Shown here one piece after another: positions 7,138-58,274 of a stretch of 64,000 nt of DNA (its first letter is position 1; each line of letters starts with the position of its first letter). The notes under the pieces were generated by a model, which saw only the letters and a program-made list of their open reading frames with translations, was not told the origin of the DNA and made no database searches. The stretch lies in contig NZ_QVQT02000003.1 of assembly GCF_003428625.2 (NCBI RefSeq), forward strand, positions 248,001 to 312,000, read 5' to 3'. The stretch comes from Paracidobacterium acidisoli. GTDB taxonomy: Bacteria > Acidobacteriota > Terriglobia > Terriglobales > Acidobacteriaceae. The translations under genes and the position numbers were made by a program.

Positions 7138-7944
7138 ATGCCAAAGTTCGGTGGAGTTCTCACATTTCCTGACTTCCGGGGATTCACACGCGCTCTGATT
7201 CTGTGGAATCTCGGCGCATACTTCGCGCTGGTGCTGCTGGGGGTGGCCTCGAAGCCGGCGGCTTCCACGCTGGTGATCTACACCGCGCTGTCGCCGCTCG
7301 CCGTGCTGCACGGCTGGATCTGGCAGATCATTACCTACAGCTTTGTCCACTCGGGGATTCTCGCCACTGCCTTCGAGCTGCTCTCGCTCTGGTTCCTGGG
7401 CAGCTTCCTGGAGTCCAGCCACGGATCGCGCTGGGTGGCCGAGATTTACTTTGTCTCGGTCGCGGGAGCGGCGCTGACGGCGATCGGGCTTTACTTCGCC
7501 ATGCCCGCCTCGGCCGTGATGCTGACGGGCGCATACGGAGGCATCTTCGGGCTGCTGATCGCCTTCGGCGTGCTGTATGCGGACATGCAGTTCATGATGT
7601 TTCCGCTGCCGATGATGATCAAGGCGAAGTATCTGGTGGCGGTCTATATGCTGATCGCGCTGGCCATGCTCTTCTCGCAGGACCGGGCCTTTGCCTTCTC
7701 CGAGCTGGGCGGCGCGCTGTTCGGCTGGCTGTACATCAAATTTGCCCCGCGGCGCGGCTTTGCCAGGGCCGGCACCGAGCGCTGGTATGGCATACGCAAC
7801 AGCTACTACCGCTGGAAACGGCGGCGCGCGGCGAAGAAGTTCGAGGTCTACATGCGGAAGCAGAATCGCGATGTGCGCTTCGACCGCGATGGAAAGTACA
7901 TCGATCCGGACAACGATCCGAACGACCGGAAGTGGATGAACTGA
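7138..7944 (+). CDS. Rhomboid-family membrane protein lacking the catalytic dyad (pseudo-rhomboid)
   Basis: 268 residues from ATG 7138; AGGTGG just upstream decides this start over one 36 codons earlier. Six hydrophobic segments span residues ~17-200. The rhomboid fold is clear: SFVHSG, LLSLWFLGSFLE, GGIFGLLIAFGVLYAD and GGALFGWLYIKF. The active site is gone. The GxSG serine position reads GAYG (Tyr133), the TM6 histidine position reads SEL (Glu189), and the TM2 His/Asn positions read Ala76/Glu80. The C-terminal ~65 residues are basic then acidic and cytoplasmic. It is predicted to be non-proteolytic, perhaps a binding or quality-control factor like iRhoms and derlins. Confidence 0.88.
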   Translation: MPKFGGVLTFPDFRGFTRALILWNLGAYFALVLLGVASKPAASTLVIYTALSPLAVLHGWIWQIITYSFVHSGILATAFELLSLWFLGSFLESSHGSRWVAEIYFVSVAGAALTAIGLYFAMPASAVMLTGAYGGIFGLLIAFGVLYADMQFMMFPLPMMIKAKYLVAVYMLIALAMLFSQDRAFAFSELGGALFGWLYIKFAPRRGFARAGTERWYGIRNSYYRWKRRRAAKKFEVYMRKQNRDVRFDRDGKYIDPDNDPNDRKWMN

Positions 7945-7968
7945 GACGGAGCTGGTGATGCGGGCAGC

Positions 7969-8083
7969 AGTCAGGCACAAAACGGCCAGTGAAAAAGCGG
8001 TCAGCAAAGCTACTGTCTGCTGTCCGCCTTATTCCTGGCCGCTTCATCCCTGACAGTTTTTGTGCTTCACCGCTGACTTGCCG
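7969..8083. repeat. 15-nt periodic repeat array A (plus units then minus units)
   Basis: Plus-oriented 15-mers at 7969-7983, 7984-7998 (GGCCAGTGAAAAAGC) and 7999-8013. From 8014 to 8083 the same unit appears in the opposite orientation, including minus-strand GGCCAGGAATAAGGC and TGTCAGGGATGAAGC. The array fills the gap between the convergent rhomboid and beta-barrel genes. A 26-nt stretch (8029-8054) is identical to 16120-16145 in array D. Confidence 0.75.
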
Positions 8084-8767
8084 CTACTTGTGCAGCGATC
8101 CCAGCTTGTAGACGATGCCCACGGCGCCGGCGAACTCATTCTGGCGGGAGTAGCCGTAATAGGTAGGCTGCCAGTCGGTAATCAGGCGGACGGACCACTT
8201 CGGGCTCAGGTTGTAGTCGCCGGAGGCGCCCACTGCGGCTCCGAAGGCCAGCTTGTCGTTGTAGATGCTGAACTGCTGCGGCGTCTCTCCGCTGGGAAAG
8301 CCGGTGCTGAACTTTCCGTAGGCGGCTCCGAAGAGCGCGTGCATGCCGAAGGTATATTTCGGAGTGCGCAGAAAACGGAAGTTCGGACCGAAGAGGAAGA
8401 GATGCTCGGACATGGGCGGGTTGTTCGGGCCGCCGCTGCCGGCCGGCAGAACGATGTTGCCGTAGGCTCCGCGCGCGCTGGCCTCAATGCCCCATACGGG
8501 ACGGACCCAGACAGTGGCTGAGCCGTTCCAGCCGAGGAGGTTGATCGCCTCCACCCCACGATTGGGGCTGGGGTTGAAGTGCGCGTACTGCGCGCCGCCG
8601 AAGACATCCCAGCGCTGGGAGTACTGCGAGAGCTCCGTTACCGGTGCGGTGGCAGTGACCTGAGCGTGCAGGCAGCTGAAGGGAAAAAGCGAAGCGGCGA
8701 AGACCAGCAGGACAGACAGACGGCGGGTGACAACGTTCACGCGATTCCAGAACCTCGTTAACATCAT
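8084..8767 (-). CDS. Outer-membrane beta-barrel protein (OmpA-like porin fold)
   Basis: About 227 residues from ATG 8767 (a second ATG follows directly). A signal peptide is present (RRLSVLLVFAASLFPFSCLHAQ). The mature part alternates polar and aromatic strands (WDVFGGAQYAHFNPS, YTFGMHALFGAAYGKF, FGAAVGASGDYNLSPKWSVR, NEFAGAVGIVYKL) and ends with a hydrophobic strand, as in small 8-stranded barrels. The upstream 200 nt contains no gene but holds repeat array B. Role unknown beyond an envelope location. Confidence 0.75.
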   Translation of the reverse strand: MMLTRFWNRVNVVTRRLSVLLVFAASLFPFSCLHAQVTATAPVTELSQYSQRWDVFGGAQYAHFNPSPNRGVEAINLLGWNGSATVWVRPVWGIEASARGAYGNIVLPAGSGGPNNPPMSEHLFLFGPNFRFLRTPKYTFGMHALFGAAYGKFSTGFPSGETPQQFSIYNDKLAFGAAVGASGDYNLSPKWSVRLITDWQPTYYGYSRQNEFAGAVGIVYKLGSLHK

Positions 8768-8791
8768 AGCTGATGGAATAGCTGATGGAGC

Positions 8792-8980
8792 GGCCAGCGA
8801 AAAGGCGGTCAGCTGAACTCCGGTCAGCAGAAAAGCGGTCGGCGGTTTTTGTATCTGGCCTGGGGAATCGTATTGCCCTGCCCTGGCCGTCACAAGCCCA
8901 TGCAGCCTGCACAACCCATGCACTCGCTGATCGGTTTTTGGCTGACCGCCCTGCCAGCTAACCGCTTCTTCGCTGACCGG
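8792..8980. repeat. 15-nt periodic repeat array B (inverted pair)
   Basis: Plus units in perfect 15-nt phase at 8792-8806 (GGCCAGCGAAAAGGC), 8807-8821, 8822-8836 (GGTCAGCAGAAAAGC) and 8837-8851. After about 75 nt of unrelated sequence, minus-oriented units follow at about 8930-8980 (minus-strand GGTCAGCGAAGAAGC at 8978-8964, then a GGTTAG unit and GGTCAGCCAAAAACC with one extra base between). It lies between the aspS stop and the beta-barrel start. Confidence 0.75.
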
Positions 8981-8981
8981 A

Positions 8982-10853
8982 CTATAGCCTCGTCCTTATA
9001 TGCAGCTCCTTCAGCTGCTGCTCGCTGACCGGCGTGGGCGCGTCGACCATCAGGTCGATGGCTTTGGCGGTCTTGGGGAAGGCGATCACTTCGCGCAGGC
9101 TCGACGCTCCGGCAAGGAGCATCACCAGCCGGTCGAGGCCGAGGGCGATGCCGCCGTGGGGCGGCGTGCCGTACTGCAGGGCTTCGAGGAAGAAGCCGAA
9201 GCGGGCCTTTGCCTCCTCGTCCGACATGCCGAGAGCGCGGAAGATCTGCTGCTGCACGTCCTGGCGGTGGATACGGATTGAGCCCGAGCCGAGCTCGAGG
9301 CCGTTCATGGCGAGATCGTAGTACCGCGCGCGGACCGAGGCCGGATCGGAGACGAGGCGCTCCATGTCCTCTTCGTGCGGCGAGGTGAAGGGGTGGTGCG
9401 CGGGCATCCAGTGGCCGGTGGCCTCGTCGTGCTCGAACATGGGGAAGTCGGTTACCCAGATGGGCCGGAAGGCCGCAGTTCCATCGACCAGCGTCGCGGA
9501 CTCGCGATCGGGCGAATTGACCACCGCATCAGTAACGGCGAAAGCTCCATGCCGGTCGGCGTACTTCTTCGCCAGCTCCACGCGGAAGTTGCCCGCCGCG
9601 CTCAGCACCGCAATCTCGCGCTCCGACAGGCGGCCTTCGGACTTCGTATCGGAGGCGGCGATGTGCGTGGCCGCGTCTCCGGCGACGATGATGAGCAGGT
9701 CGTCGGCTGCGGCATCGGCCAGCGCGCGGACCTTTGCCGCGGCCTCGGGGAAGCCCTTTTCGAGGCGCTTCAGGTCGTCGATGTACTTTGCGCCCCTGCG
9801 CGTGTCGAAGAGCGGCTTGTTGTCGTCGCGCTCTTTGCGCGAAAGCTCGCTGACCTTTGGAATACGCAGAGCGACGACGGGCAGCGCCGGATCGATGGCC
9901 AGTGCGGCAAGGTTTTCCTGCGTAAAGGCTTCGCTCACATCGGTCAGCCCCGGCAGGCGCAGGTCGGGCTTGTCGATGCCGAACCGCCGCATGGACTCGT
10001 CGTAGGTGATCTGCGGAAAGGGCGTGGGCAGATGGATGCCGACGGCGGCGAAGCTGGCGGCGAGGAAGCCTTCGACCACGCGGAAGATGGTCTCCTGCTG
10101 CGGGAAGGTCATCTCCAGATCGATCTGCGTGAACTCGGGCTGGCGGTCGGCGCGGAGGTCCTCGTCGCGGAAGCAGCGCGCAATCTGGAAATAGCGGTCC
10201 ATGCCGGAGATCATCAGAATCTGCTTGAAGAGCTGCGGCGACTGCGGCAGCGCATAAAATTCGCCCGGATGCACGCGGCTCGGCACCAGATAATCGCGCG
10301 CTCCTTCCGGCGTCGAGCGCGTCATGAACGGCGTTTCGATTTCCAGGAAGCCTTCCTGGGACAGATGGCTGCGCACGGCCAGCGCCAGCTTGTGCCGCAC
10401 CTCGAAGTTGCGCTGCATCTCGGGGCGGCGGAGGTCGATGTAGCGGTACTTGAGGCGCACTTCCTCGTTGCCGATGGCTTCTTCGGCGGGCGAGAAGGGC
10501 GCGAGCTTCGCGTCGTTGAGGATGAGCAGCTCATGCGCGGCGATCTCGATCTCACCGGTGGGCATTTTAGGGTTCACGGCTTCTTTGCCGCGCTCGCGAA
10601 CCAGCCCCTGGGCGAGGACGACGTACTCGGGGCGCGCCTGCTCGGCTTTGAGGTGGCCTTCGGGCGCGAGATCCTTGTCGAGCACGATCTGCGTGATGCC
10701 GTAGCGGTCGCGCAGATCCAGAAAGATGAGGTTGCCGTGGTCGCGGCGACGATTCACCCATCCCATCAGGGTGACAGTTTTCCCGGCGTCGGCGGCACGA
10801 AGCTCGCCACAGGTATGCGTGCGCTGTTTGGTTCCTAAAAAGTCGAGTGTCAC
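8982..10853 (-). CDS. aspS: Aspartyl-tRNA synthetase, bacterial type, probably non-discriminating
   Basis: 623 residues from a GTG start at 10853. AGGG 6 nt upstream supports it; an upstream TTG in the same frame overlaps the previous gene's stop. The N-terminal OB anticodon-binding domain includes [15 protein letters not shown]. The class II core follows ([59 protein letters not shown] motif 2), then a GAD insertion (~300-430) and GLDRLVMLL motif 3. Asp is charged onto tRNA(Asp). His39, in RRRDHG, is the residue type associated with relaxed AspRS enzymes that also make Asp-tRNA(Asn) for GatCAB. It is downstream of hisS and a small unknown gene on the same strand. Confidence 0.96.
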
Positions 10854-14553: not shown

Positions 14554-15660
14554 ATGTCCGATCCACAACCGACGCCCACTTCTCTCGACTATTCCCCCGA
14601 ACATCTGACGCAGCGATTCCAGACTCTCCAGGCTGAATTTGATCTCGGTCTCCGAGAGGCTTCTACTCCCGAGGAGCTAGAAGATCTCCGCCTCAAATGG
14701 GAGGGCCGCAAGCAGGGCCGTCTCACCCTGCTCAGCTCTCTCTGGCTGAAAGAGGCGCCAGCAGAGAAAAAGAAAGAGATCGGCCAGCGTTTTAACGCGC
14801 TGAAAGATCACATCGTTTCAGAGCTGCAACGCGCCGCGGGTTCGAGAGGTCAGAACGTTCTCGACGCCGAAGCCATCGACATCACCCAGCCCGGCACCCG
14901 CCGCCGCCTTGGTGCCGAGCACCCGCTCATCAGGACGTGGAACGAAATCGTCAAAATCTTCCAGGCCATGGGTTACTCCGTCGGCGTCGGCCCCGAGGTC
15001 GAAACCGACTACTACAACTTCGAGTCGCTCAACTTTCCGCCGGGGCACCCGGCACGCGATACGCAGGACACCCTCGTCATCACCGGGCAGGAGCGCAAGC
15101 CGCTCCGCGACCGCCTGCTCATGCGCACGCACACCTCGCCCGTCCAGATCCGCACCATGGAGCAGCAGCCGCCGCCCGTGCGCATCGTCATCCCCGGCAA
15201 GGTGCACCGCAACGACGCCGCCGACGCCACCCACTCGCCCATCTTCCATCAGGTTGAAGGCCTCTGCGTCGACACCAACATTACCTTCTCCGATCTGAAG
15301 GGCACGCTCGACCACTTCATGAAGGCGCTCTTCGGATCGAGCGTCAAAACGCGCTTCTTCCCGTCCTTCTTTCCCTTCACCGAGCCTTCCGCTGACGTGC
15401 AGATCAGCTGCCCCTTCTGCGGCGGCAAAGGCTGCCGCAAGTGCAAGTACTCCGGCTGGATCGAGCTGCTCGGCTGCGGCATGGTCGACCCCGCCGTCTT
15501 CGGATTCGTGCAGCAAAAGCAGCCCGCCTACGATCCGAAAAAGATCAGCGGATTCGCCTTCGGCATGGGCATCGACCGCGTCGCCATGATGAGCTACGGC
15601 ATCAGCGACATCAGCCTCATGTACTCCGGAGACCTGCGCTTTCTGGAGCAGTTTGCGTGA
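14554..15660 (+). CDS. pheS: Phenylalanyl-tRNA synthetase alpha subunit
   Basis: 368 residues. An N-terminal coiled-coil region (~15-95) binds tRNA. The class II core includes HPLIRTWNEIVKIFQAMGY, RDTQDTL, LLMRTHTSPVQIRTM, GKVHRNDAADATHSPIFHQ (motif 2), and SGFAFGMGIDRVAMMSYGI (motif 3). A four-Cys CPFCGGKGCRKC insertion (~285-300) looks zinc-binding. It forms the (alpha beta)2 enzyme with PheT, encoded 500 nt downstream. Between the two genes lies an S23-like gene flanked by inverted 15-mer arrays, so the usual tight pheST linkage is interrupted. Confidence 0.97.
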   Translation: MSDPQPTPTSLDYSPEHLTQRFQTLQAEFDLGLREASTPEELEDLRLKWEGRKQGRLTLLSSLWLKEAPAEKKKEIGQRFNALKDHIVSELQRAAGSRGQNVLDAEAIDITQPGTRRRLGAEHPLIRTWNEIVKIFQAMGYSVGVGPEVETDYYNFESLNFPPGHPARDTQDTLVITGQERKPLRDRLLMRTHTSPVQIRTMEQQPPPVRIVIPGKVHRNDAADATHSPIFHQVEGLCVDTNITFSDLKGTLDHFMKALFGSSVKTRFFPSFFPFTEPSADVQISCPFCGGKGCRKCKYSGWIELLGCGMVDPAVFGFVQQKQPAYDPKKISGFAFGMGIDRVAMMSYGISDISLMYSGDLRFLEQFA

Positions 15661-15667
15661 ACGAGTG

Positions 15668-15727
15668 GGGCAGCGGAAGAACGGTCAGGAGTAAGACGGC
15701 CAGTGAAAAACCGGCCAGCGAGTTCAT
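15668..15727 (+). repeat. 15-nt periodic repeat array C
   Basis: Four plus-oriented units in perfect phase: 15668-15682 (GGGCAGCGGAAGAAC), 15683-15697 (GGTCAGGAGTAAGAC), 15698-15712 (GGCCAGTGAAAAACC) and 15713-15727 (GGCCAGCGAGTTCAT). It starts 8 nt after the pheS stop and ends 3 nt before the S23-like ATG. Confidence 0.8.
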
Positions 15728-15730
15728 GGC

Positions 15731-16099
15731 ATGAGGGTGAAGCAGTTTCGTGACCTGCTGGTTTGGCAGAAGGGAATGGCGCTTGCGCGTGAAATCTATC
15801 GAGTGACGCAGTCTTTTCCCAAAGCAGAAGTATTTGGCCTGACAGCGCAGATGAGACGTGCTGCCGTCTCTATCCCGAGCAATATCGCGGAAGGCCAGGG
15901 AAGGCTCTCTGACAAAGTCTTCATTCTTTTTCTCGGCCACGCGCGAGGATCGCTTTATGAACTGGAGACACAGGCTGAACTTGCAGAAAGCCTCGGTTAT
16001 CTCGGGAAGCAGGAGCTTCAGCAGGTACTGTCCGAGTGCAGTGAACTGGGCCGTATGCTTCACGGCTTATTGAATTCGATGAGAGAGGAAAATGGCTGA
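15731..16099 (+). CDS. Four-helix bundle protein of the S23/IVS family
   Basis: 122 residues. Motifs VKQFRDLLVWQKGMALAREIY, FGLTAQMRRAAVSIPSNIAEG, FLGHARGSLYELETQ are hallmarks of the 23S-rRNA-intervening-sequence/S23 four-helix proteins, a family related to Avd of diversity-generating retroelements. Biochemical role is unproven; nucleic-acid binding has been proposed for relatives. There is no rRNA gene or reverse transcriptase here. The gene is inserted between pheS and pheT, and inverted 15-mer arrays (C plus, D minus) lie immediately on both sides. This suggests it arrived as a unit. Confidence 0.9.
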   Translation: MRVKQFRDLLVWQKGMALAREIYRVTQSFPKAEVFGLTAQMRRAAVSIPSNIAEGQGRLSDKVFILFLGHARGSLYELETQAELAESLGYLGKQELQQVLSECSELGRMLHGLLNSMREENG

Positions 16100-16101
16100 G
16101 G

Positions 16102-16153
16102 GAGGGTTTGCTGGCCGTTTTATTCCTGGCCGCTTCATCCCTGACTGCTGACC
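16102..16153 (-). repeat. 15-nt periodic repeat array D
   Basis: Minus-oriented units at 16116-16102 (GGCCAGCAAACCCTC), 16131-16117 (GGCCAGGAATAAAAC), 16146-16132 (AGTCAGGGATGAAGC) and a partial GGTCAGC at 16153-16147. It starts 2 nt after the S23-like stop and ends 14 nt before the pheT ATG. It mirrors array C. Confidence 0.8.
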
Positions 16154-16167
16154 GCCACACAATACGC

Positions 16168-18246
16168 ATGAAAATTCTCTCCAACTGGCTCCGCTCGTAC
16201 CTTCCTGAACTCGCCGTCTCCGACCGCCAGCTCGCCGATGACCTCACGCTGCGCGGCATCGCCGTTGAAGGCGTGTTTGATTTTGAAGCAGACGGCTCGC
16301 TCTTCGAGATGGACATCACCACCAACCGCGTCGATGCCATGAACCACTACGGCATCGCGCGCGAGGCGGCAACCATCTATGGCCTGCAGCTTAAGCCGCT
16401 GGAAACGGCGCTGCCCGCAGCAAAGCCGACCTCGCAGCCGTTCCCCGTCACCATCGAAGAGCAGAAGCTCTGCGGACGCTTCACCGCCCGCGTCCTGCGC
16501 GACGTAACCATCGCGCCCTCCACCGGCATCGTCGCCGACCGCTTCCGTCTCCTCGAGCAAAAGCTCATCTCGAACGCCGTCGACGCCACCAACTTCGTCA
16601 CCCTCGCCATCGGCCAGCCCACACATGCCTTCGACCTCGACAAGCTCGAAGGCGGCATCGTCGTCCGCCGCGCGCGCAAAGGCGAAAAGCTCAAGACCCT
16701 CGACGGTATCGAGCGCACACTTGATCCCGACGATCTCATCGTCGCCGACCACAAGAAGGCCCTCGGCATCGCGGGAGTGATTGGCGGGTGGGACACCATG
16801 ATCACGCCCGAGACGAAAAACATCCTCGTCGAAGCCGCATGGTTCGACCCCGCCACCGTGCGCCGCAGCTCCAAACGTCACCTCATCCACACCGACGCCT
16901 CGCACCGCTTCGAGCGTGGAGCCGACTTCAACGCCGCTTCTGTCGCCAACGCCCTCGTCAGCCGCATCATCCTTGAAGCAGGCGGTTACGCCGAAGGCGA
17001 TCTCGTCGATGTCCTCATCCCCGAAGCCGAGCAGCGCACCGCAAAACGCGCCAGCATCCATTTCGCCGTCAGCGAAGCGCGCCGCATCCTCGGACCGACC
17101 GAAGACAAAGAAGGTATTACCGCGGCAATTTCAGAAACTATCCTCACCGGCCTCGGCTGCACGCTCCACAAGACAGAAGAAGAACACTACAGCGTCACGC
17201 TGCCCAGCTGGCGTCTCGACCTCGAGCGCGAGATCGACCTCATCGAAGAGATCGCCCGCGTTTACGGCTATAACCGTTTTCAGAACACGCTGCCATCCTT
17301 TTCAGGTTCGGTTGTCGCCCTTCCCTGGGCCGAAAAAGAAGCCGCGCTGCGCGAGGCTCTCCTCGCACTCTGCTGGAACGAGGCCATCTCCTCTACTTTT
17401 TGTTCTGTAACCGACGCAGATACATTTTCCCGTGATCCGAAATCCGCCGTCGCCATCGGCAATCCGCTCAGCGAAGAAGCGGGCATGCTGCGCCCCTCGC
17501 TCGTGCCCGGCATGCTCGGCATGCTTTCGCTCAACATCAGCCGCGACGTCGAATCGGCCGCGCTCTTCGAGATGGGCACCGTCTTCACCGGCGCCGCGGA
17601 AAAGGTAGACGAGCGCCCCTCGCTCGCCATCGGCGCAACCGGCGCCGCGCTCGGCGCAGCAGAGACAGACTTCTTCGACATCAAGGGAACCGTCGAAACC
17701 CTGCTCGGAAAGTTCTCCTCGCGCTCGCTCTACTACGACCGCTTCCCATCCGCCACCGGACTCATGCCCGCATGGCTGCATCCCGGCCGCAGCGCCCGCG
17801 CCGTGCTCGACGGAGCCACCGTCGGCTACTTCGGCCAGCTTCACCCCGCCGAAGCCGAGCGCCGCAAGCTCAAGCAGACCGTCTTCCTCGGCGAGCTCTA
17901 TCTCGACCGCCTCTACAAACAGTCGCTGCGCCAGCCCGCCATGCGCGAGCTCTCCCGCTTCCAGCCCGTGCGCCGCGACTTCTCCTTAATTGTGCCGGAC
18001 ACGGTGACATATTCCGTCATCGCCGACGCCGTCGCCTCGCTCACCATCTCCGAGCTGCAAAGCTTCGCGCTCAAAGAAATCCTCCGCGACCCAAAAGGAA
18101 AGCTCGCACCCGTCGGCCATTACTCGCTGCTCCTCGGAACCGTCTTTCAGTCGCTCGAGCGCACCCTGCGCGAAGAGGAAGTGCAGAGCTGGTCGCAGCA
18201 GGTCGTCGCAGCCCTCGAAGCGCGGGGAGCAAGGCTGCGCAGCTGA
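16168..18246 (+). CDS. pheT: Phenylalanyl-tRNA synthetase beta subunit, short form without EMAP/OB domain
   Basis: 692 residues from ATG 16168 (MKILSNWLRSYLPEL). The usual PheT is ~790-800 residues, with a tRNA-binding EMAP/OB domain after the first ~40. Here GIAVEGVFDFEADGSL runs directly into FEMDITTNRVDAMNHYGIAREAA, the start of B3/B4-type sequence, so about 100 residues are absent. B3/B4 editing region (~110-300), B5 (~300-370), the catalytic-like core and the C-terminal ferredoxin-like anticodon domain (FQPVRRDFSLIVPD) remain. The gene is intact. No clear Shine-Dalgarno sequence is visible; array D lies directly upstream. Confidence 0.95.
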   Translation: MKILSNWLRSYLPELAVSDRQLADDLTLRGIAVEGVFDFEADGSLFEMDITTNRVDAMNHYGIAREAATIYGLQLKPLETALPAAKPTSQPFPVTIEEQKLCGRFTARVLRDVTIAPSTGIVADRFRLLEQKLISNAVDATNFVTLAIGQPTHAFDLDKLEGGIVVRRARKGEKLKTLDGIERTLDPDDLIVADHKKALGIAGVIGGWDTMITPETKNILVEAAWFDPATVRRSSKRHLIHTDASHRFERGADFNAASVANALVSRIILEAGGYAEGDLVDVLIPEAEQRTAKRASIHFAVSEARRILGPTEDKEGITAAISETILTGLGCTLHKTEEEHYSVTLPSWRLDLEREIDLIEEIARVYGYNRFQNTLPSFSGSVVALPWAEKEAALREALLALCWNEAISSTFCSVTDADTFSRDPKSAVAIGNPLSEEAGMLRPSLVPGMLGMLSLNISRDVESAALFEMGTVFTGAAEKVDERPSLAIGATGAALGAAETDFFDIKGTVETLLGKFSSRSLYYDRFPSATGLMPAWLHPGRSARAVLDGATVGYFGQLHPAEAERRKLKQTVFLGELYLDRLYKQSLRQPAMRELSRFQPVRRDFSLIVPDTVTYSVIADAVASLTISELQSFALKEILRDPKGKLAPVGHYSLLLGTVFQSLERTLREEEVQSWSQQVVAALEARGARLRS

Positions 18247-35464: not shown

Positions 35465-35499
35465 GGACTCGCCGTCCAGGCACTCGCGCCTTCGGCGCC
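35465..35499 (-). repeat. 35-nt palindromic repeat, copy 1
   Basis: Minus-strand sequence starts GGCGCCGAAGGCGC, then GAGTGCCT and GGACGGCGAGTCC. It differs from copy 2 at only a few positions. It lies 19 nt upstream of the VOC-ribH start. Related fragments lie near 35605-35650, overlapping the end of the PIN toxin gene. Confidence 0.75.
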
Positions 35500-36298: not shown

Positions 36299-36651
36299 GG
36301 CAGAGTCATCCTGCTAAGTTATCTTAGTCAAGATGGATACTGAAGGTCAAGAAGCCATCTCAAAAAATGCCGATTGAGAGGAAAGCGTACTCAAATGAGG
36401 GGTTTATCACAGACTCTTATTATTGATATGAATGCACTCATATTTTATGAATCATTTGTGCTATAGTGGCGTCGAATAAGCTGCAGGTTGAGGTCTGCCA
36501 GAGCGCAGGGACTCGGTCCGTGCGCCTGGGGCAGGCAGTTAGCAGTCAGCCATAAAACGGTCGGCAGGTTGTCTCGCTGGCCGCCTTGCCGCTGACGGTT
36601 TCATCGCCGGCCGTTTCACCAGCTACTCGCATCATCAGCTACAGGAGAATC
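36299..36651. other. Divergent regulatory region between Phd/PIN module and clpB
   Basis: 353 nt. For the antitoxin (minus): TTGACC and TAAGAT about 18 nt apart, and the inverted repeat CTAAG-TTAT-CTTAG at 36314-36327. For clpB (plus): an AT-rich stretch at 36420-36466 with ATATGA (36425-36430) and TCATAT (36437-36442) arms, and TATAGT at 36461. No CIRCE-type element was seen. The right 100 nt is repeat array E. Confidence 0.5.
36544..36642. repeat. 15-nt periodic repeat array E (plus unit then minus units)
   Basis: Plus unit AGTCAGCCATAAAAC (36544-36558) and the start of another (GGTCGGCAGG). Then five minus-oriented 15-mers in perfect phase at 36568-36582 (GGCCAGCGAGACAAC), 36583-36597, 36598-36612 (GGCCGGCGATGAAAC), 36613-36627 and 36628-36642. 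It ends 9 nt before the clpB ATG, just ahead of its Shine-Dalgarno sequence. Confidence 0.75.
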
Positions 36652-47086: not shown

Positions 47087-48967
47087 ATGAGCCTCTTCCT
47101 GCCCTTCGCCGAGCTGTGCGACGCCCTCGCCGCGACCACGAAGAAGCTCGAAAAGCGCGCCCTCATCGCCCAGTACCTCAAATCGCTGCCTATCGCCGAC
47201 GCCTCTCGCGCCGTCCTCTGGCTCTCCGGCTCGCCCTTCGCCGAAACCGACCGCCGCGCCCTCAACGCCGGAGGCTCGCTCCTCAGCAAGGCCGTCGCCC
47301 AGCTCACCGGAGCCGACCGCAACTCCATGCACGCCGCCTACCGCCGCCACGGAGACTTCGGCGCAGCCTCAGCCGATCTGCTCGCCGCCCGCCTCGCGCA
47401 CGCCGCGACCCTCACTCTCGCCGCTCTTGAAACCGCCTTCGACCACCTCGCCGCCGCCCGCGGCTCCGCGCCAAAGCTGCGGCTGGTGACCGATCTCCTC
47501 GCGCAGGCCACGCCCGTCGAAGCCAAATACCTCATCAAGCTCATCCTCGGAGACATGCGCACCGGCGTGCAGCAGAGCCTCGTCGAAGAGGCCATCGCCG
47601 CAGCCTTTGATACGGAAGTCCCCGCCGTGCGTCGCGCCGGCATGCTCCTCGGCAACCTCGGCAAAGTGGTGGCGATGGCCGCGCAGGGCACGCTCGCCGA
47701 GGCCCGCATGAAGCTCTTCCATCCCCTCGGCTTCATGCTCGCCAGCCCCGTCGCCACCGTCGACGAAGCCATAGACCGTTTCGCCAGGGAAACTGAGGCG
47801 GAAGAAACCGGATTCCTTCGAGCATCCAGCGAAAGCGCCGCGACGGTTGCTAATGAGGTCTCTTCCGAGGCGCCGAAGGCGCGGTTGCCTGGACGGCCAG
47901 TCCAAATGGAGGACAAATACGACGGCATCCGCGCGCAGCTTCATTGCGGAGATTCCTCCGAGCCAGGCCGCGTCGGCCTCTTTTCCCGCAGCCGCGAAGA
48001 CCTGAGCGACGGTTTCCCCGACCTCATCGAAGCCTTCGCCGCTATCCCCGAGCCGGTCATCCTCGACGGCGAAATTCTCGCCTGGAATGCCGCCGCGCAG
48101 CGTGCCCTGCCGTTCTCCTCGCTCCAGCAGCGTATCGGCCGCAAGCGCGTCACCGAGCAGATGCGCGAGCAGATCCCCGTCGTCTTCATGGCCTTCGATC
48201 TGCTCTATGGCAACTCCGAATTACAGCTCGAACAGCCTCTGCGCCAACGGCGAACGCTGCTCGAAAATTTCCTCGCCACCCACGGCCCCGTCACCGCAGA
48301 AGCCGTACAGCGAGGACAGGCCAGTCTCTTCGCGCCGGAAACCGCGCAGCCATTTTTCCCGCGCCTGATGCTCGCGCCCGCCACGCCTCTCGCATCGGCA
48401 GAACAACTGGACCGCGCCTATTCTGAAGCCCGCAATCGCGGCAACGAAGGCGTCATGCTCAAATCGCTCGCCAGCACCTATCAGCCCGGACGCCGCGGAC
48501 TCGCCTGGCTCAAGCTCAAGCGCGAGCTGGCCACGCTCGACGTCGTCGTTACCGGAGCCGAGTTCGGCAACGGACGCCGCGCCGCCGTCCTTAGCGACTA
48601 CACCTTCGCCGTGCGCGATGGCGCGACAGCGAATGGCTCTGAATCAAATAATCTCAACCTGAAGAATGTCGGGAAGGCCTACTCCGGCCTCACCGACGCC
48701 GAAATCGCCGAACTCACCGACTTCTTCAAAGCCCACACCCTCGAAGACTTCGGAACCTTCCGTACGGTAGAGCCCCTGATCGTCCTCGAAGTCGCCTTCA
48801 ACAACGTCATGCGCTCCGACCGCCACGCGAGCGGCTTCGCGCTGCGCTTCCCGCGCATCGTCCGAATCCGAACCGACAAGCCTGTCGAGGAGATCGACAC
48901 GCTGCAGCGCGTCGAGGAAATTTATGCGGGGCAGCCTGAACTGGGCGCTTCTTCGCTGCCCAGCTAG
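47087..48967 (+). CDS. ATP-dependent DNA ligase
   Basis: 626 residues. N-terminal DNA-binding domain (~1-215, with DLLAQATPVEAKYLIKLILGDMRTGVQQSL). Adenylation domain with MEDKYDGIRAQ, where Lys277 is the AMP-acceptor. Later motifs: LFSRSREDLSDGFPDL, VILDGEILAW, FMAFDLLYG, EGVMLKSLASTYQPGRRGLAWLKLK. The OB domain ends near RFPRIVRIRTDKP. It seals nicks using ATP, accessory to an NAD-dependent LigA presumably elsewhere. Residues 261-273 (EAPKARLPGRPVQ), just before the catalytic motif, are encoded by a copy of the 35-nt palindromic repeat. The stop overlaps the convergent CDF gene. Confidence 0.94.
   Translation: MSLFLPFAELCDALAATTKKLEKRALIAQYLKSLPIADASRAVLWLSGSPFAETDRRALNAGGSLLSKAVAQLTGADRNSMHAAYRRHGDFGAASADLLAARLAHAATLTLAALETAFDHLAAARGSAPKLRLVTDLLAQATPVEAKYLIKLILGDMRTGVQQSLVEEAIAAAFDTEVPAVRRAGMLLGNLGKVVAMAAQGTLAEARMKLFHPLGFMLASPVATVDEAIDRFARETEAEETGFLRASSESAATVANEVSSEAPKARLPGRPVQMEDKYDGIRAQLHCGDSSEPGRVGLFSRSREDLSDGFPDLIEAFAAIPEPVILDGEILAWNAAAQRALPFSSLQQRIGRKRVTEQMREQIPVVFMAFDLLYGNSELQLEQPLRQRRTLLENFLATHGPVTAEAVQRGQASLFAPETAQPFFPRLMLAPATPLASAEQLDRAYSEARNRGNEGVMLKSLASTYQPGRRGLAWLKLKRELATLDVVVTGAEFGNGRRAAVLSDYTFAVRDGATANGSESNNLNLKNVGKAYSGLTDAEIAELTDFFKAHTLEDFGTFRTVEPLIVLEVAFNNVMRSDRHASGFALRFPRIVRIRTDKPVEEIDTLQRVEEIYAGQPELGASSLPS
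47869..47903 (+). repeat. 35-nt palindromic repeat, copy 2, inside the ligase gene
   Basis: Starts GGCGCCGAAGGCGC, then GGTTGCCT, then GGACGGCCAGTCC. It is translated in frame as EAPKARLPGRPVQ (ligase residues 261-273). The reading frame stays intact. Confidence 0.8.
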
Positions 48968-51482: not shown

Positions 51483-51517
51483 TGCGCCGAAGGCGCGTCC
51501 GCCTGGACGGCCAGTCC
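51483..51517 (+). repeat. 35-nt palindromic repeat, copy 3, upstream of hslV
   Basis: TGCGCCGAAGGCGC, then GTCCGCCT, then GGACGGCCAGTCC. It ends 7 nt before a TATACT hexamer (51525-51530) that could be the hslV -10, 10 nt before the ATG. The repeat would then occupy the -35 region. Confidence 0.75.
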
Positions 51518-51540
51518 CCTGCGCTATACTCCAAAGAGAC

Positions 51541-55188: not shown

Positions 55189-56451
55189 ATGGCACACGAA
55201 TCGCATTCTTCTCCTGCACATCGTCATAAGGGTCACGGCGGAAAAGGCAAGCCGGGAGCCCCGCAGGCCAGCGGTGATCCGGTCTTCGCGCAGCCCGCGC
55301 CTTCTCCGGACCCGACCTCGTTTCGGAACCCGGTCACCGACCAGAGCGATAAGGACACGCCCGGCGTGCAGGTGGTGCCGCCGGCGCGCGGCGGAGCCGT
55401 CGAGCCGGTTCTGACGCTGGCTCAGGTATTCGGCAGCCAGGGAGAGACGATCACGCAGACCATCCAGAGCTCGGGCCAGATCGTCTTTCACAGCGTGGGC
55501 GATACGGGCAGCGTGGAGGGTCCGTCGACGCAGTCGCTGGTCGCCGACAAGATGGTGACCGACTTCAGCGAAACCAGCGCCGCGGATGTGCCGTCATTCT
55601 TCTTCCATCTGGGCGACGTGGTCTACTACTTCGGCGAAGCGACGTATTACTACGATCAGTTCTTCGAGCCGTACCGCTCGTATCCGGCGCCGATTATCGC
55701 CATCCCCGGCAACCACGACGGCATCGTTTACCCGAGCGATTCGGCTCCGACGCTCGATGCCTTTTTGCGCAACTTCTGTGCCGCCTCTGCGGCCCAGTCA
55801 CCGGACGCGGGTGGTCTGCTGCGGACGACGATGATCGCTCCCGGCGTGTACTTCACGCTGGAGGCGCCGTTTGTCCGGATTCTGGGGGTTTACAGCAATG
55901 TGCTCGAAGACCCCGGAGTGATCTCGGCGCAGGGCACGACTTATCCCACGCTGGACAGCCGCCAGGTGGATTTTCTTACCGCGGCGCTGAAGCGGGTGAC
56001 GACCGACGACTTCACCGGGGCGGTGATCATCGCTGTGCATCATCCGCCGTTCTCCGGCGGATCGGTCCATGGCGGAAGCCCGCTGATGCTGGCCGATATC
56101 GACAGCGCCTGCCAGGCGGCGGGAGTGTGGCCGCACGCGGTCTTCTCCGGGCACGCTCATAACTACCAGCGCTTTACCCGCATCGTGAACAGCTATCAGA
56201 CTCCGTATATTGTCGCGGGCTGCGGGGGGCATTCGCCGCTGAGCAAAATGAGCGGGACCTATCGTACGCCGTACAAGGTCGACGACACGCTCACCCTCGA
56301 GAGCTACGACGACACCGACTACGGCTATCTGCGGGTTGTGGTGAACGCGCAGACGATGACCGTCGAGTTTCATCCCCAGTCGGATGGCTCGACCACCAAG
56401 ACGCCCGATGACACGGTGACGATCGATCTGGCGACGCGGACGATCAGCTGA
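55189..56451 (+). CDS. Metallophosphoesterase (calcineurin-like)
   Basis: 420 residues, GGAGG 6 nt upstream. His/Pro/Gly-rich N-terminus without a classical signal peptide. The five phosphoesterase motifs are present in order: FHSVGDTG, FHLGDVVYYFG, AIPGNHDG, AVHHPPFSGG, FSGHAHNYQRF. These bind two metals and hydrolyse a phosphate ester. The C-terminal strand region (TMTVEFHPQSDGSTTKTPDDTVTIDLATRTIS) is needed for comparison with a decayed copy at ~58.2 kb. Substrate unknown; resembles acid-phosphatase-like families. Confidence 0.92.
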   Translation: MAHESHSSPAHRHKGHGGKGKPGAPQASGDPVFAQPAPSPDPTSFRNPVTDQSDKDTPGVQVVPPARGGAVEPVLTLAQVFGSQGETITQTIQSSGQIVFHSVGDTGSVEGPSTQSLVADKMVTDFSETSAADVPSFFFHLGDVVYYFGEATYYYDQFFEPYRSYPAPIIAIPGNHDGIVYPSDSAPTLDAFLRNFCAASAAQSPDAGGLLRTTMIAPGVYFTLEAPFVRILGVYSNVLEDPGVISAQGTTYPTLDSRQVDFLTAALKRVTTDDFTGAVIIAVHHPPFSGGSVHGGSPLMLADIDSACQAAGVWPHAVFSGHAHNYQRFTRIVNSYQTPYIVAGCGGHSPLSKMSGTYRTPYKVDDTLTLESYDDTDYGYLRVVVNAQTMTVEFHPQSDGSTTKTPDDTVTIDLATRTIS

Positions 56452-56581
56452 GCCTGATTTCAGGTAACTGCTTCGCAAAGAAGATTGTTTCCTGTAAACA
56501 ATCTCCGGTGCATGCGCCGAGATAATGATTTGTGTCAGATTTTTTTTGTTTATATGTATTCAGGAATGAAATCTCTGAAAA

Positions 56582-58165: not shown

Positions 58166-58241
58166 AGTTGAGACGTGCTCACGCTCAAGAGCTGCGACGA
58201 CAGGGTAACGGTTAGTCCGGCGACGCGGACGATTGGCTGAG
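58166..58241 (+). pseudogene. Decayed 3' remnant of a metallophosphoesterase paralogue
   Basis: AAAGTTGAGACGTGCTCACG... aligns with the phosphoesterase coding region around KVDDTLTLESYDD (~56275-56310). Then GACGACAGGGTAACG... aligns with its last 15 codons: DDRVTVSPATRTIG-stop here versus DDTVTIDLATRTIS-stop there, and GAGCC follows both stops. The intervening ~100 nt is absent, consistent with deletion between GACGAC/GATGAC direct repeats. Confidence 0.75.
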
Positions 58242-58274
58242 CCAGGCCTGATCGGCTGAAAACCGGGCAAAGGA

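Follow-up and report, generated by a model that had tools for sequence, protein, structure and literature searches.

The window analysed here, a 64,000-nt stretch of Paracidobacterium acidisoli DNA, contains tandem arrays of the unit AAARCGGYCAGCnnn, which in this genome repeats every 15 nt as steps of 7 and 8 nt with AG at each step. Units were called with a 20-nt matrix at a score above 5.5, and coordinates are given as window positions. Array A, flanked by the genes of a rhomboid-family protein and a beta-barrel protein, is composed of both arms without a gene, three units on the plus strand (7955..8011) being followed by three on the minus strand (8013..8062). Array B contains four plus units (8785..8849) and four minus units (8920..8985), the latter at the stop codon of a gene encoding a class II tRNA synthetase (PF00152; lysS-like by our reading), with an extra CGGTCAGC on the minus strand beyond this arm (9024-9031). 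Array C (plus strand, 15676..15725), directly 3' of pheS, and array D (minus strand, 16104..16160), directly before pheT, enclose a plus-strand gene of the S23/four helix bundle family (15731..16099; 122 aa; PF05635, TIGR02436), and array E, upstream of clpB, has two plus units (36537..36571) and three minus units (36570..36619). The motif CGGYCAGC occurs 50 times in the window as compared to 12.4 expected, a number reached by none of 100 shuffles, and 20 clusters of at least three units were counted in 800 kb of the contig vs one in an order-3 Markov control. A search of Rfam gave no match within positions 7500-37000. Two other repeats were also observed, a 35-nt dispersed repeat (GGACTCGCCGTCCAGGC...GCCTTCGGCGCC) that is unrelated to the arrays and present in two orientations at 35465-35499, 47869-47903 and 51484-51518, and a 58-nt direct repeat with 76% identity at 56397-56454 and 58186-58243.

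An earlier note on this DNA had claimed that the arrays switch from plus to minus units, always in this order, that transcripts through any of them could fold into hairpins and that this suggests a defined element, not random slippage. Unit coordinates place the switches where they had been reported, at once in A and E, after a gap in B and around one gene in C/D, and the proposed pairing partners GGCCAG and CTGGCC are indeed located at 7984-7989 and 8035-8040; the note had not recognised the gene enclosed by C and D as part of the element. Since a plus-then-minus order reads alike on both strands, the claim about order really means 'always convergent' and not 'always one strand', and in this sense it was found in 18 of 18 adjacent opposed runs (10 of 10 in 800 kb of the contig and eight elsewhere in the genome) without any reversed, divergent run. 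This count covered the 800 kb and 19 further loci of the genome, with L004, L021 and L024 skipped as overlaps. Folding in excess of shuffled controls was observed for A (z = -4.32, 0/200 shuffles), for B (8770-9040; z = -3.46, 0/200) and for C-gene-D (15661-16170; z = -3.66, 0/100), in which C and D paired as a long terminal stem, but array E, with z = -0.83 and 40 of 200 shuffles, exhibits no excess folding, so the hairpin claim does not extend to it. When 16 convergent arrays from across the genome were folded, z had a median of -3.62 and was below -2 in 13 of them, as compared to one of 16 random windows. Random relative orientation together with a lack of excess folding, which the note had named as speaking against its view, did not occur. 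The proposal of a defined element thus gains support from the uniform convergence, from excess folding in most copies and from related elements that occur or are missing as a unit at sites that otherwise match.

The S23/four-helix-bundle family was originally named after ORFs located within 23S rRNA intervening sequences. Its member enclosed by arrays C and D matches PF05635 (E 6e-40, 136 bits) and TIGR02436 (132 bits), and the S23 profile is also matched by the solved homologues 2gsc and 2rld. Three S23 genes are present in the P. acidisoli genome, and the other two are also flanked by convergent short repeats, albeit with markedly different sequences (CAGGGTG/CAGGGCA and GATCAGGGATTAGCC). 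Among the S23 copies of P. acidisoli, L073 (C8:284790-285092) carries an in-frame TAA and therefore looks broken. Outside the window, solo convergent arrays at C9:247115 and C9:521286 are of the CAGGGATTAGCC / CAGGGCACAGG type, corresponding to the arms of the other two S23 copies. Matches of the S23 protein to Avd profiles are weak and below both cut-offs (bAvd PF22296, 36.3 bits with a cut-off of 40, E 9e-9; NF033474, 32.4 bits with a cut-off of 80, E 9e-8). Searches of the P. acidisoli genome found neither a reverse transcriptase (PF00078; 3 of 14 control genomes positive) nor a Y1 (IS200/RAYT) transposase (PF01797; 5 of 14 positive), and hence the DGR and REP/RAYT routes are currently unavailable in this genome.

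Arms around S23 genes were compared using the PF05635 genes of relatives and 80 loci from many phyla, of which 75 were used and five without full flanks were dropped. For each locus, the left 300 nt were scored against the reverse complement of the right flank, both of the same locus and across loci. Own pairs had a median score of 21.0 vs a cross-pair mean of 10.3, and own-arm pairing exceeded the 95th percentile of cross pairs in 63 of the 75 loci and the 99th in 41, ranking first in 48; the remaining 12 loci fail the 95th percentile. In control windows shifted by 700-1200 nt, only 0 or 1 of 68-73 exceeded the 99th percentile. In relatives and the own genome (28 loci, after 4 of 32 were dropped as cut), 25 loci score at least 15.0 and 17 rank first, and three (L086, L095 and L099) show no arm pairing. 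Arm sequence is hence specific to each S23 locus, with the left arm matching the right arm of the same locus. Autocorrelation peaks at lags of 7, 14, 21 and 28 in the flanks only, the period being 7 outside the P. acidisoli genome. The left arm of the 63 paired loci was AG-phased at 7-8 nt in 48, CT-phased in three and undecided in 12, so that the orientation is fixed although the sequences differ. The S23 gene is codirectional with both neighbours in 48 of 71 loci. An inversion of the element, considered due to high cross scores for L077/L080 and L100-L102, was dropped, as the strand of the gene had simply not been used to orient these loci. At L146 and L154, the arms are near-perfect and very long (more than 150 nt), of the AGTTCTC and GTGGACG type.

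Convergent arrays with AG to the left number 12 in approximately 1.5 Mb from five S23-containing genomes (six in P. acidisoli, five in G001, one in G062, none in G007 and G021) and 0 in 0.65 Mb of three S23-less genomes (G017, G012 and G013), with one in the P. acidisoli Markov control. Solo density does not clearly track the number of S23 genes, since G007, with nine, has no such array in 148 kb and G021, with five, none in 172 kb. Upstream of clpB, the place of array E, which is itself weak, 10 of 27 loci in relatives exceed shuffles (3 of 30 being too short), and convergent arrays of other sequence were seen there in other genera at L348, L352, L353, L356, L361 and L368.

The pheS-pheT junction was examined in 50 of 92 genomes with a pheT match plus L104, and after removal of 4 of 51 pheT loci without pheS, 47 junctions were retained. 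An S23 element is located in 11 of these, the two genes are adjacent or overlapping (mostly ATGA) in 15, and 21 have other gaps, among which at least L217, L222, L227, L229 and L231 are solo convergent arrays of other sequence. When the presence of S23 is mapped on the pheS/pheT tree, 10 changes are required, no fewer than with shuffled labels, and pairs of the same genus differ at this site (G019/G104 and G047/G110). S23 proteins from pheS-pheT group together with a single outsider, L103, which is located elsewhere, and the arms at this junction co-vary between genera (own mean 19.6, cross 11.4). This pattern fits one lineage that was repeatedly lost, or regained at the same place.

S23 genes were found on 25 of 72,556 plasmid records and in none of 50,697 phage records. 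At one site on Trichormus plasmid C (site 1), relatives that are 98% identical over the flanks do not contain 428 nt. The empty site reads AAAAAGTAATTAAC, and in the filled state the element has GTAAT on both sides, constituting an exact 5-bp duplication. A truncated state is found in Nostoc C052, retaining only the left arm and the S23 start, and a solo state in Brasilonema, with arms (fold z -4.92) without S23 or any ORF; the GTAAT duplication is exact in the filled copy only. The copy in Scytonema differs from that in Trichormus by 14 nt, exactly two heptamers. Two plasmids of Nostoc differ reciprocally at two further sites, X and Y, such that each plasmid is filled at one site and empty at the other. 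At site X of Nostoc N6, a solo copy interrupts the S23 gene but is absent from the near-identical C052 gene, and hence the direction of this change is insertion; at the other plasmid sites, the direction of change is inferred. Relatives without the element also exist for each of the Calothrix, nrdB-nrdA and transporter sites. Concerning target duplications, one is exact, a second is compatible and a third contains a mismatch, and a clear duplication was not found at the Calothrix NIES-22, nrdB-nrdA, transporter and Aulosira sites. Related element DNA (78-82%) occurs at different places in Trichormus, Aulosira and Nostoc plasmids. An S23 element rich in AAAGCTA repeats was seen between cas6 and cas4 on a plasmid of Pseudanabaena (NZ_CP112875, L320).

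Published work already describes convergent pairs of heptamers in Xanthomonas and the presence of heptamers in the intervening sequence of Coxiella. According to the accessible part of PMC4990558, 23S rRNA intervening sequences with an S23 ORF are found in Coxiella, Leptospira, Xanthomonas and Brucella, and that of Coxiella has tandem heptamers before the ORF, with a mobile origin already proposed. C-S23-D resembles them in having the S23 ORF inside a terminal inverted-repeat stem with excess folding, but differs in its position between protein genes and in having heptamer arrays as both arms, and furthermore solo copies, empty sites and target duplication are seen for the S23 elements described here. 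S23-type intervening sequences are located in helix 9, 25 or 45 of the 23S rRNA gene; C-S23-D, with its position between pheS and pheT, is therefore not classed as such a sequence. In Xanthomonas, GGGAATC heptamers are intergenic, with 70 and 75 convergent pairs in two genomes, and in the part of PMC4692102 available, one G-quadruplex heptamer is described, generally no link to mobile elements was found and 'four helix' does not appear. The arrays studied here are likewise convergent pairs of approximately 7-nt tandem units, but their unit lacks GGG. The TAACTGA heptamers of Beggiatoaceae form abundant, taxonomically scattered intergenic arrays, almost all direct with one inverted and upstream of start codons, with no mention of S23 in the accessible text of PMC4679880; the arrays here share the intergenic heptamers, but are convergent and S23-linked. 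The S23 protein exhibits weak homology to the DGR accessory protein Avd, but its scores are below threshold and a reverse transcriptase was not found in this genome. MITEs and REP/RAYT elements are comparable in being small, palindromic, intergenic and present in many copies, but the arms here are degenerate heptamer arrays differing between copies and the Y1 transposase gene was not found. PF05635 is named in PMC10053308, in the part available. A paper linking S23 genes to convergent heptamer arms and to movement between genes was not found in the open-licence literature searched.

Taken together, the arrays are probably the two arms of a small mobile element, of which C-S23-D is a complete copy and A, B and E are solo copies without the gene, a reading to which we assign a probability of roughly 0.7. 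The complete element of approximately 415-575 nt consists of AG-phased repeats of about 7 nt, the S23 gene and the same repeats inverted; its observed features are a shared convergent orientation, own-arm pairing, folding in excess of shuffles for most copies, and plasmid sites that either contain or lack the whole unit, with one exact 5-bp target duplication. The element usually carries this one gene, but some copies, including most of those in the window, lost or never had it. A MITE-like passenger moved in trans by an unrelated transposase, with S23 having another role such as RNA chaperone or stabiliser and the heptamers being merely ends, would agree with the occurrence of solo copies, one of them newly nested, and with the 5-bp duplication, as such duplications are typical of several DDE transposase families. 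This explanation is unlikely, because members of the S23 family are associated with such arms in many phyla, and arm sequences that differ per locus would hardly be recognised by one shared transposase, and because no Y1/IS200-type transposase was found in the P. acidisoli genome.

We consider similarly doubtful that the main role is exerted at the RNA level, by an intervening-sequence-like hairpin in operon transcripts at which an RNase III cut separates neighbouring messages, with movement rare and incidental. The frequent codirectionality of S23 with both neighbours, the long terminal stem surrounding S23 and the presence of 2-3 heptamers at the site where RNase III acts on the intervening sequence of Coxiella, as given in the accessible part of PMC4990558, are in line with such a role, but the scatter over the host tree, with clustering no more than in shuffles, and presence or absence at near-identical plasmid sites point to a selfish element. 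Replication slippage with hairpin-templated correction of imperfect palindromes, requiring no dedicated machinery, would explain shifts of heptamer number by whole units and arms that drift yet stay alike, but is improbable, since whole S23 elements appear as units and related DNA is found at different sites. Bidirectional transcription terminators or REP-type regulatory hairpins are more improbable still: array A sits between convergent genes, left ends are A-rich and right ends T-rich, and the sole terminator-like site in 7900-9100 falls in A (8022-8002, minus strand), but this one site compares with 0.7 in shuffles, none vs 0.8 was found in 15600-16250, a full copy is located inside pheS-pheT and a RAYT-type gene (PF01797) was not found in the genome.

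Based on the mobile-element reading, we conclude that the element is mobile and related to 23S rRNA intervening sequences, but located between genes. The S23 protein may bind the repeated heptamers on a folded strand, and this binding could promote insertion of full and solo copies, which would be favoured at gene junctions inside transcribed units, with the cut presumably made by a host enzyme or by S23 itself; 23S rRNA intervening sequences might then be copies that landed in rRNA genes. The element is real and defined, and there is a fair chance that it represents a transposon class of its own. A broader proposal, which we advance tentatively and at somewhat less than even odds, is that S23 genes and convergent heptamer arrays constitute one bacteria-wide class of transposable elements without a recognised transposase, in which an S23 oligomer reads the arms by register and drives full and solo insertion, and which gave rise to rRNA intervening sequences and to many dispersed heptamer repeats.

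Annotated S23 proteins are known from many phyla but have no assigned function, the source of rRNA intervening sequences has been unaccounted for over decades, and heptamer repeats have so far been described genome by genome without a cause being given. If it is true that one element explains all three, each would be testable via the other two, and the cyanobacterial plasmids, in which sites occur in filled, empty, truncated and solo states, provide a ready system.
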